From: Bacteroidota bacterium
Lineage (GTDB): Bacteria > Bacteroidota > Ignavibacteria > Palsa-1295
Direction of reading: 5' to 3'
Assembly: GCA_018266755.1 (NCBI GenBank)
Contig: JAFDZW010000007.1
Coordinates: 146,048 to 202,143 of the forward strand
Length of the DNA: 56,096 bases
Shown: positions 22,195-52,108 of the stretch, in pieces
How the letters are laid out: each line of letters starts with the position of its first letter
Position numbering within the stretch: the first letter of the stretch is position 1
The notes under the pieces: generated by a model
Told to the model about the DNA's origin: nothing
The model's input: only the letters and a program-made list of their open reading frames with translations
The model's database searches: none
Program-made: the position numbers and the translations under genes

Positions 22195-22253
22195 GAAATA
22201 TGCTTGAATTGTATGTGCGAGCTAGAACGCTCCTTCGCTTGCATTGTTACACG

Positions 22254-23516
22254 ATGCTCGTGAAGCAAATCTACGCCATACTCGTTGCGCTCTTCGTCAG
22301 TGCCACTTGTGTCGATGCCTCTACCCGCACCGGCCTCGATGTATTTTCCTCCAACAAGTTCGCGCAGTTGAAGGGGAAGAAGGTTGCGCTCGTGGTGAAC
22401 CAGACCTCGCTGTCGGATTCGGGGGCGTTCTCGGGGGATCTGTTGCTCGATGAAGCGGCACGGACGAGGCGTGCCTCGCCCCTCCGGTTGGTGGCGATTT
22501 TTACGCCGGAGCATGGATTGAACGGCGCACGCAAGGCAGGGGCAACGAGCGATAGCGCCGAGACCTATCGCGGTGTGCCGGTGTATTCGCTTTATGGTTC
22601 GACGCGCAAGCCAACTCTGAAGATGCTGCGCGGGATCGACGTGCTTGTCTTCGACATGCAGGACATCGGCGTGCGGCCGTACACATTCCTTTCGACGATG
22701 ATCCTCGCGATGGAAGCGGCGGCCGAGAACAATATCGAATTCGTCGTGCTCGACCGCCCGAATCCTTTGGGCGGCGAGAGAGTGGAGGGCAATGTGCTCG
22801 ATACCTCGCTTCGCTCGTTCGTCGGGCAGATCCCGATCCCCTACATCCATGGCATGACGCTCGGCGAACTGGCGAAGATGGCGGTAGGTGAAGGTTGGTT
22901 CAAATCTGCTGCGAAGCTCAAGCTCACGGTCGTGCCGATGCAAGGGTGGTCGCGGCGCATGACGTGGCCCGAGACCAAATTGAAATGGGTTGCGCCAAGC
23001 CCCAATATCCCTACGTGGCGATCCGCGGTCGGCTGCGCGATCTTCGGGGCAATCGGCGAGCTCGGGACGCTCTCGGTCGGCATCGGCACCGATGCGCCGT
23101 TCCTGCGGCTCGGCTCGCACTTGGTAAAAGGCGACGCGCTGCTCAGCGCCGCGAAGGCTACGCTTCCAAAGGAGCTCACACTTACCCGCAAGGATTTTAC
23201 CCTCCCGTTCGGTGACTCCGAGAAATCCTATAACGGGGTTGCTGTCGTACTACCGGATGACATCGCACGCATCGGCCGCCTCTACGGGCCTGCGCTCTCG
23301 CTCTTTGCGACGCTGCTCTCCGATACAGCATTCGCGAAAGCATACAGCGCAGTGGTGTTCTCGTCGAAGCGAATGTTCGAGAAGGTGACGGGGACGCACG
23401 ACGTCTTGAAGTGCTACAACTCGGACACTGCAGCGCTTGCGAAGGTCATGGCCTCGTGGAAACGCGACGAGGCCGCATTCCGTACACGACGACAGAAATA
23501 CTTGATCTACAAATGA
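22254..23516 (+). CDS. namZ: NamZ-like exo-beta-N-acetylmuramidase (DUF1343/GH171)
   Basis: 420 residues from the ATG at 22254, chosen because a signal peptide (VKQIYAILVALFVSATCVDA) starts there; an upstream ATG adds 18 residues without such character. Family motifs are AIFTPEHGLNG, VFDMQDIGVRPYTF, LDRPNPLGG and IPYIHGMTLGELA. Characterised members release MurNAc from peptidoglycan fragments, so a periplasmic cell-wall recycling role is likely. Residues 70-78 (RTRRASPLR) are encoded by a palindromic repeat that also occurs between genes at 51991-52014, an apparent in-frame insertion just before the conserved AIFTPEHG. The stop overlaps the next start (ATGA). Confidence 0.88.
   Translation: MLVKQIYAILVALFVSATCVDASTRTGLDVFSSNKFAQLKGKKVALVVNQTSLSDSGAFSGDLLLDEAARTRRASPLRLVAIFTPEHGLNGARKAGATSDSAETYRGVPVYSLYGSTRKPTLKMLRGIDVLVFDMQDIGVRPYTFLSTMILAMEAAAENNIEFVVLDRPNPLGGERVEGNVLDTSLRSFVGQIPIPYIHGMTLGELAKMAVGEGWFKSAAKLKLTVVPMQGWSRRMTWPETKLKWVAPSPNIPTWRSAVGCAIFGAIGELGTLSVGIGTDAPFLRLGSHLVKGDALLSAAKATLPKELTLTRKDFTLPFGDSEKSYNGVAVVLPDDIARIGRLYGPALSLFATLLSDTAFAKAYSAVVFSSKRMFEKVTGTHDVLKCYNSDTAALAKVMASWKRDEAAFRTRRQKYLIYK
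22461..22486. repeat. Palindromic REP-like element inside namZ
   Basis: GAGGCGTGCCTCGCCCCTCCGG inside the gene matches, apart from about one base, the reverse complement of the intergenic element at 51991-52014 (core GGGCGAGGCACGCCTCGCCC). It remains in frame. Confidence 0.7.
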
Positions 23517-32117: not shown

Positions 32118-32157
32118 ACCCATAGTTCCGCTTCGCTGCACTTTGGGCTGCGGGTAT
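32118..32157 (+). repeat. Hairpin REP-like element left of the transposase (imperfect)
   Basis: CCCATAG (32119-32125) faces CTTTGGG (32141-32147), one mismatch from a perfect stem, then CTGCGGGTA. It is a degenerate copy of the elements at 32671 and 32818. Confidence 0.75.
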
Positions 32158-32201: not shown

Positions 32202-32624
32202 TTACGGATGTTCAGCTTGTGCGTGCATCCAGCGGGCTTCCTGTTGGTAATCTTGGTGTGTGTGGTGTTCTTCTTGGCGTTCGATGTATCGTGCGACCCG
32301 ACGAAGACTGCTCGGACTGACACTGAACGCCCCGTAACCGATCTGCCACGAGAATTGGGTGCCCGTTCGTTTCGATAACCACACCGCCGAGCGAGCTTTG
32401 ATCTCGCGCAGCAATGCGGCGACCGACGTTTCGCGCCCGAGGTCGACGAGCAAATGGACGTGGTCCGGCATTCCTCCGTCCGAGATGAGGCGGCCGCCGT
32501 GGCCGTGGATGATCGGCGTGATGAGCCTCGTGAATTCGGTATGGAGCTCCGGCGTCAGGACGTCCGCACGGTGTTTGGTGCCGAAAATGATATGGACGTA
32601 TATCGCCCCGAGCGAATGTGACAT
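32202..32624 (-). CDS. tnpA: IS200-like / REP-associated tyrosine transposase (Y1, HUH)
   Basis: 140 residues from the ATG at 32624, with GGAG upstream. Family blocks are HIIFGTKHRADVLTPEL, GGMPDHVHLLVDL with the HUH pair, FSWQIGYGAFSVSPS, and the catalytic Tyr in ARYIERQEEHH. The last about 12 residues differ from the usual family ending. These enzymes cut and join single-stranded DNA at hairpins. Three palindromic repeats surround the gene (32118, 32671, 32818), as for REP-associated transposases. No accessory TnpB is present. It may have a domestic role in repeat spread or be a decaying IS. Confidence 0.9.
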   Translation of the reverse strand: MSHSLGAIYVHIIFGTKHRADVLTPELHTEFTRLITPIIHGHGGRLISDGGMPDHVHLLVDLGRETSVAALLREIKARSAVWLSKRTGTQFSWQIGYGAFSVSPSSLRRVARYIERQEEHHTHQDYQQEARWMHAQAEHP

Positions 32625-32670
32625 GTTGATCTCGCCCTCCACGATCTATTGTTATCGTTCGTTGAACCGA

Positions 32671-32817: not shown

Positions 32818-32856
32818 TACCCGCAGCCCATAGTGCAGCGAAGCGGAACTATGGGT
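32818..32856 (-). repeat. Hairpin REP-like element, inverted copy
   Basis: The reverse-oriented copy: CCCATAG (32827-32833) pairs with CTATGGG (32849-32855), and the loop GCAGCGAAGCGGAA is complementary to the loop of the copy at 32118. Confidence 0.85.
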
Positions 32857-50586: not shown

Positions 50587-51714
50587 TCAGAAGATCGCTG
50601 TGAAGTGTTTGCCGGGGAGTTGGCGGATGAGGTCTTTGAACTCCAGCTCTAGCAAACGGACCAGTACGGTCTGCACGTCAACGCCGGAGCGTTCGATGAT
50701 CGTATCTATATACAGTGGCTCTCCGGCAGTCGTGAGGATGTCATAGAGCTTCTTCTGATCTCCGCTGAGATGTTCGGCATGCTTCTTGATCTCGGCTTTG
50801 CTGCGTTCGTTCGAACCGTCGGAGATCCAGCCGAGACTCTTGAGGATATCCTGCGCATTGCGAAATGGCTTTGCGCGGCCTTCGGCGAGGAGGAGGTTCG
50901 GTCCGCGACTCATCGGGCGGTCAACATCGCCGGGAAGCGCGAAGACGTCGCGGTCTTGGTCCAGTGCGATCGACGCCGTGATCATCGAGCCGCCTTTCTC
51001 ATCGCTTTCGATGACAACGGTCGAAGCCGAAAGGCCGCTAACAATGCGGTTGCGCCACGGGAAATTCTTCGCATCGGGTTTCGTGCCGAGCGGAAGCTCG
51101 GAGATGACAAGCCCACGGCCGGAGCGCACAAGCTCTGCAGCGAACGACTTGTTCGACGGCGGATAGATCACGTCGATACCCGAGCCAAGCACAGCGATCG
51201 TCGAACCGCCTGCATCGAAGACCGCACGATGGCCCGCGCTGTCAACGCCAAGCGCGAGGCCGCTCACGACGGTCACGCCCGCTCCGGCAAGATCGGTGCA
51301 GATATCTTTCGTCACACGCTTGCCATAGTCGGTGATGCGGCGCGAGCCGATGACGGCAACCATCCGCTCTGCCTGCAACAACGCGCGTTCGCCGTTGAGC
51401 CACAGCAGAGCGGGCGGGTTGAAAATGCTGCGCAGCGAGTCGGGATAATCGGCATCGAAGAATGTCATGATGCCGGCAGTCTGGGGCAATGCAGCAAGAT
51501 CGCGTGTTGCGCGCTCGAGATTCTCGTCGCGCGATGAGAACCACTCTTCAGCCGTCGCCTTCCCGACACCGGGCACAGCGGCAAGCTTGCGCGCGCTTGC
51601 TTCGAACGCCTTGCGGCTATCGCCGAAGTATGTGCGGATCGCCACAAGCCTCCCGGCTCCGATCCCGCTCGAAAGCGACAATGCGTAATAGTATAGTAGT
51701 TCTTCGGATTCCAA
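50587..51714 (-). CDS. dprA: DNA processing protein DprA
   Basis: 375 residues from a TTG start; a stop codon lies four codons upstream. The Rossmann-like DprA core is clear: MVAVIGSRRITDYGKRV, VVSGLALGVDSAGHRAVFDA, IAVLGSGIDVIYPPSN, PLGTKPDAKNFPWRNRIVSGLS and VFALPGDVDRPMSRGPNLLL. A C-terminal winged-helix domain (about residues 310-375) follows, and an N-terminal helix-hairpin-helix lies at about 40-60. DprA loads RecA on incoming single-stranded DNA, so the host may be naturally transformable. The gene is flanked by inverted copies of one REP-like palindrome. Confidence 0.96.
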   Translation of the reverse strand: MESEELLYYYALSLSSGIGAGRLVAIRTYFGDSRKAFEASARKLAAVPGVGKATAEEWFSSRDENLERATRDLAALPQTAGIMTFFDADYPDSLRSIFNPPALLWLNGERALLQAERMVAVIGSRRITDYGKRVTKDICTDLAGAGVTVVSGLALGVDSAGHRAVFDAGGSTIAVLGSGIDVIYPPSNKSFAAELVRSGRGLVISELPLGTKPDAKNFPWRNRIVSGLSASTVVIESDEKGGSMITASIALDQDRDVFALPGDVDRPMSRGPNLLLAEGRAKPFRNAQDILKSLGWISDGSNERSKAEIKKHAEHLSGDQKKLYDILTTAGEPLYIDTIIERSGVDVQTVLVRLLELEFKDLIRQLPGKHFTAIF

Positions 51715-51823
51715 TGGTGCCCATCAATTGATCCGGCCTGTAATTCTCAACACTATACACGGGATGTCGTGTTGCAGGAAATAGTCGATAGTCCTATGCA
51801 GACACAGCTACCCACGACCCCCG

Positions 51824-51843
51824 CCCACGATTGAAATCGTGGG
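51824..51843. repeat. Perfect palindrome CCCACGATT-GA-AATCGTGGG
   Basis: A 9-bp stem with a 2-base centre, followed by an imperfect palindrome to 51878 centred on GGTCCTTCGGAC. Confidence 0.8.
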
Positions 51844-51881
51844 CTATGCGTCATTCGGTCCTTCGGACGTAATGCATAGGC

Positions 51882-51906
51882 AGTAGGACGGACTCTCAGT
51901 CCGTCC
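51882..51906. repeat. REP-like palindrome upstream of dprA
   Basis: Inverted copy of the 25-base element at 50504-50528; stem GGACGGACT / AGTCCGTCC. Confidence 0.8.
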
Positions 51907-51921
51907 TTCTTTCGCACACCT

Positions 51922-51952
51922 GTCATTCTGAGGCGCCAGCCGAAGAATCCCT
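51922..51952. repeat. Divergent copy of the GTCATTCTGAG repeat
   Basis: GTCATTCTGAG...GAAGAATCCCTTC shares both ends with the inverted repeat arms at 21431 and 21491, with a changed centre (GCGCCAGCC). Confidence 0.7.
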
Positions 51953-51990
51953 TCCGCAGAGCCGCAGCATCCCCACGCCACCACCCACCC

Positions 51991-52014
51991 GTAGGGGCGA
52001 GGCACGCCTCGCCC
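51991..52014. repeat. Palindrome GGGCGAGGC-AC-GCCTCGCCC
   Basis: A 9-bp perfect stem (51995-52003 with 52006-52014). A near copy in inverse orientation lies inside namZ at 22461-22486. Confidence 0.8.
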
Positions 52015-52072
52015 GCTCTCTCAAAGCCACCACCAAACAAAACGGGGCAGCCTCTCCCGAAGCCGCCCCGCC

Positions 52073-52108
52073 CGTTACTCGTTACTTTCAACTCGTTACT
52101 ACTCCTGA
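52073..52108. repeat. ACTCGTTAC-type short repeat, copy 1
   Basis: Repeated CTCGTTACT units run into the 3' end of the T9SS gene. A second copy lies at 53285-53317, at the matching place in the paralogue. Confidence 0.65.

Follow-up and report, generated by a model that had tools for sequence, protein, structure and literature searches.

The exo-beta-N-acetylmuramidase gene namZ lies in a stretch of 56,096 nucleotides (hereafter the window) from a Bacteroidota bacterium of the Ignavibacteria. Its open reading frame of 438 aa contains both NamZ domains and remains open through the nine residues RTRRASPLR, whose codons consist of a palindromic element and flanking bases read on the plus strand (Table 1; the peptide spanning this segment is LLLDEAARTRRASPLR). 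The nine residues occupy positions 88-96 when counted from ATG 22200 and 70-78 when counted from ATG 22254, which is the likelier start. As the original prediction stated for the AIFTPEHGL block, they stand right before a conserved segment, here LVAIFTPEHGL.

Table 1. Coordinates of namZ, the palindromic elements and related features; single coordinates are window positions, and paired positions in the last row refer to contigs of the genome.
Feature	Position	Strand	Remarks
namZ, exo-beta-N-acetylmuramidase NamZ	22200..23516	+	PF07075 NamZ_N and PF20732 NamZ_C; formerly DUF1343
RTRRASPLR codons	22461..22487	+	~8 codons (24 bp) more than closest homologues
REP copy inside namZ	22462..22485	-	GTAG end degraded to GGAG, right-hand end on + strand
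Other Y1/HUH transposase (RAYT-like) in the window	32202..32642	-	Different palindrome family on both sides
Intergenic REP copy GTAGGGGCGAGGCACGCCTCGCCC	51991..52014	+	GTAG intact
REP and second-palindrome pairs, ~45-70 bp apart	C1:20119/20164, C5:809056/809125, C5:1303141/1303186, C5:1637571/1637621, C6:196945/196991		

It had been proposed that a palindrome at 22461-22486 matches, inverted, an intergenic palindrome near the far end of the window, and this match was borne out. The in-gene 24-mer, taken as its reverse complement (GGAGGGGCGAGGCACGCCTCGTCC), is identical to the intergenic GTAGGGGCGAGGCACGCCTCGCCC at 22 of 24 positions, with two differences, and is inverted relative to it. When the window was searched with the 20-mer at up to 3 mismatches, the only sites were 22462-22481 (minus strand, 1 mismatch) and 51995-52014, and 100 shuffles of the window at the same threshold gave 0 matches; the pair is far beyond chance. 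The intergenic copy is located between an ORF ending at 51714 and an ORF starting at 52099, and an Rfam search of the window returned no match. The same intergenic region contains further palindromes at 51820-51950, GCCCACGATTGAAATCGTGGGC and GGACGGACTCTCAGTCCGTCC, the former with 18 forward sites in the genome (up to 3 mismatches) versus 0 in the control.

The genome-wide search confirmed that the palindrome is a dispersed repeat. Its core, GAGGCRYGCCTC, was found at 24 sites in the 3.55-Mb genome versus 1 for a reversed control, and the 20-mer at up to 3 mismatches was found at 32 sites versus 0. The roughly 31 related copies, of 24 bp each, place the element among many-copy short palindromes of 20-40 bp. 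Copies usually take the form 5'-GTAGGG(G/T)CGAGGCATGCCTCG(C/A)CC-3', a GTAG tag followed by a 20-bp palindrome, and the tag stands at one palindrome end in most copies, the intergenic copy of the window included, while the namZ copy has GGAG. A GTAG tag joined to a short palindrome is the form given for GTAG-type REPs in the relevant passages of PMC3733652, and on its sequence the element, which the original prediction left unnamed, is a GTAG-type repetitive extragenic palindrome (REP) with a candidate REP-associated transposase (RAYT) in the same genome. As the original prediction held, the element normally lies between genes: in a scan of the ORFs above the 80-150 aa range, those over the other genome copies had no Pfam domain, or had one only downstream of the element. 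Two candidate coding hosts were rejected, a 519-aa frame at C5:987628, which is antisense and crosses the gap that follows a kdsA-like ORF, and a 343-aa ORF at C5:924473 with domains only downstream of the REP. Several REP copies are accompanied, in opposite orientation, by a second palindrome type, GTAGGGGCGACGCATGCGTCGCCC (GTAGGGGCGACGC...), and single REPs are also present elsewhere in the genome. Five copies (the one at 51960-52060 and those at L005, L014, L019 and L021) have much of their flanks in common, extending 40 bp or more in both directions, which suggests that the REP also travels or duplicates within a longer composite repeat.

NamZ was aligned with 29 homologues, of which the family supplied 12 and the class 17. 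The inserted residues have no counterpart in any of the 29, so that an ancestral origin is not borne out; in these homologues a DLLLD-like segment runs almost straight into the strand before PEHG, and PDB 4k05, itself a homologue, has a gap at the same position. Relative to the two closest homologues (G001 of the same genus and G005 of the same family) the excess is 8 codons, or 24 bp, which is the length of the element; relative to most other homologues it is 7 codons, or 21 bp rather than 24 bp. Even with up to 3 mismatches allowed, a search of the 12 family members did not recover the repeat; of the 395 genomes in the phylum, 2 have its exact form, one of them the present genome. Because the homologues lack the residues and the repeat is absent from the family members and rare in the phylum, the residues are derived, and on this alignment evidence the REP in namZ is a derived in-frame insertion. 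At 61% identity, the same-genus homologue is too distant to show precisely where the insertion starts and stops or whether the target site was altered. Judged by alignment, including that with PDB 4k05, the inserted residues appear to sit at a helix-strand junction beside the PEHG block; a single-sequence AlphaFold model of NamZ, with a mean pLDDT of 42, was too poor to place them. From the intact frame we infer that the insert is translated, and the most likely outcome is a loop insertion tolerated by the protein and presumably neutral. The original description of the element as "recruited" and translated thus holds for the in-frame insertion, with translation read from the open frame, but recruitment is an overstatement, since a benefit is without support.

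The genome contains five Y1_Tnp (PF01797) regions. One encodes a 177-aa protein (L002:1527-2060) that lies between inverted REP copies (L002:1491-2109), with flanking arms of 27 nt that are 93% complementary, and it carries an HIH motif in MPNHIHG. Given these flanking copies and the motif, this Y1/HUH transposase is likely the RAYT for this REP, and we infer that it inserted the namZ copy. The transposase within the window is not the proposed partner; a different palindrome family, with inverted CCATAGTTCCGCTTCGCTGCACT copies at 32120-32142 and 32832-32854, flanks it. Copies of a GCCCACGA...TCGTGGGC family (L196:1401-1583) adjoin yet another RAYT (G000 C5:1092502-1092840), and in an Anaerolineaceae MAG (L177:4544-5046) the REP found in namZ is contained in a RAYT gene whose reading frame shifts there. 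Cleavage by the E. coli RAYT requires GTAG, and the tetranucleotide is also important to the Stenotrophomonas RAYT (PMC8266576). The namZ copy has lost GTAG and has one changed arm base, and is therefore probably immobile; its predicted single-strand fold is weaker and different (-8.8 and -7.0 versus -9.9 kcal/mol).

Taken together, the data point to the insertion of a single GTAG-type REP into namZ, probably by a RAYT, with the frame kept and about 8 residues gained and tolerated, a reading to which we give a probability of roughly 0.88. A single 24-bp REP would have entered namZ in this lineage, with the genome's own REP-associated HUH/Y1 transposase as the probable inserter. Five of the six REP frames are open, the sole closed frame meeting the TAG of GTAG, and this together with a length that is a multiple of three would have left namZ open with about 8 residues added. 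The additions, at a helix-strand junction by PEHG, would most likely be tolerated, and the loss of GTAG and one arm base after insertion would have left the copy probably immobile.

Other explanations of the nine residues fare less well. They could be an ordinary arginine-rich loop whose palindrome is owed to chance or to codon bias, and the core 12-mer on its own does turn up fortuitously a few times in a genome, as its two other matches appear to have done (C5:1638436 and C11:22127). This explanation is nonetheless extremely improbable, as the shuffles, the homologue alignment and the reversed-sequence control have already largely refuted it: the element agrees with a dispersed repeat of this genome at 22 of its 24 bases, no shuffle gave a match, and the excess length over homologues fits that of the element. 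It is also conceivable that a REP pair, in the dimer or REPIN form, was inserted and that one partner was then lost by an in-frame deletion. Pairs of the REP and the second palindrome are common in this genome (Table 1), and a FabA-domain protein of Pelotalea has a pair-like insertion; the excess in NamZ is, however, about one REP long, the second palindrome leaves no trace, and single REPs are found elsewhere in the genome, so we regard a lost partner as unlikely.

We find it doubtful to a still greater degree that the insertion was kept for a purpose, such as forming a hairpin in the namZ mRNA or reshaping a substrate-binding loop. The insert adjoins the conserved PEHG block, and PMC3733652 attributes to REPs a putative role in the structure of mRNA and DNA, but no homologue has the insert, the hairpin of the in-gene copy is degraded, and REP insertions elsewhere hit unrelated proteins.

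Beyond this genome, at least 119 stretches from GTDB genomes contain the exact 23-mer, where base composition predicts 0.03 to 0.6, as do 24 viral contigs. These stretches cover over 20 phylum-level groups as assigned by record titles, including Chloroflexota, Cyanobacteriota, Pseudomonadota, Planctomycetota, Latescibacterota, Acidobacteriota, Bacteroidota, Deinococcota, Zixibacteria and others. Many of the records are MAGs, in which contamination is possible in single cases; those of Erwinia, Planktothrix and Pelotalea chapellei carry no MAG label. ORF and Pfam checks of the 146 REP copies in the GTDB loci yielded three strong coding hosts in which the REP is open in frame: ThiL of a Bacteroidales MAG, where the insertion is absent from 25 homologues taken from genomes of the window's phylum (Bacteroidota); DnaX of a Deinococcales MAG, where it lies past the last domain; and the FabA-domain protein of Pelotalea chapellei, with an apparent REP pair. 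In one ORF of a contig from the viral set, a phage portal fusion, the REP is likewise open in frame and separates the portal domain from the Mu F domain. All four use REP frames other than that in NamZ, and the peptide types from the REP are RRGEACLA(PT), VGARHASP, GRGMPRPY and RARHASPL-type. For NamZ and ThiL the insertion is seen against homologues, whereas DnaX, the FabA-domain protein and the portal ORF are candidate insertions identified by ORF and Pfam checks. It is possible, though we hold this only tentatively, that the REP sequence GTAGGGGCGAGGCATGCCTCGCCC spread horizontally with its RAYTs through over 20 phyla of bacteria and into some phages, repeatedly donating short peptides to unrelated proteins as a bacteria-wide source of in-frame insertions.

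Insertions of this kind are already known from GTAG REPs and from Rickettsia palindromic elements (RPEs). REPs inside genes were described in 2013 by Di Nocera et al. (PMC3733652), whose relevant passages concern GTAG-tagged short palindromes that, like the element here, are mostly intergenic, in some cases open in frame, and RAYT-associated. The hosts given in those passages include genes for DNA synthesis and repair, as with the DnaX case found here; namZ is not named in them. The passages place GTAG repeats as a whole in Proteobacteria, Cyanobacteria, Chloroflexi and the PVC group; here one identical REP occurs in more than 20 phylum-level groups. RPEs, described before the intragenic GTAG REPs, are likewise short palindromic repeats in frame in protein-coding genes, and some RPE-bearing proteins are expressed (cited in PMC3733652). 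RPE-4 and RPE-6 match R. conorii repeats of the CGTC rather than the GTAG superfamily in the relevant passages of that paper, and are set apart by this description. The REPs around a Y1/HUH gene and the opposite-orientation REP pairs of this genome resemble REPINs/BIMEs with their RAYT (TnpA-REP), but the namZ copy is a single REP and not a pair. A literature search of incomplete coverage turned up no publication that deals with this repeat or with its spread across phyla, and the identical 23-mer across more than 20 phylum-level groups, viral contigs and several proteins is the more unusual part of these findings.

The REP in namZ clearly exemplifies how mobile noncoding DNA becomes protein sequence, with translation read from the intact frame. 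As the relatives have neither the insert nor the repeat, the insertion can be attributed to one lineage. Because the identical repeat occurs in numerous phyla and the peptides encoded by its frames can be recognised, a peptide-inserting role of this REP could be measured in all sequenced bacteria.
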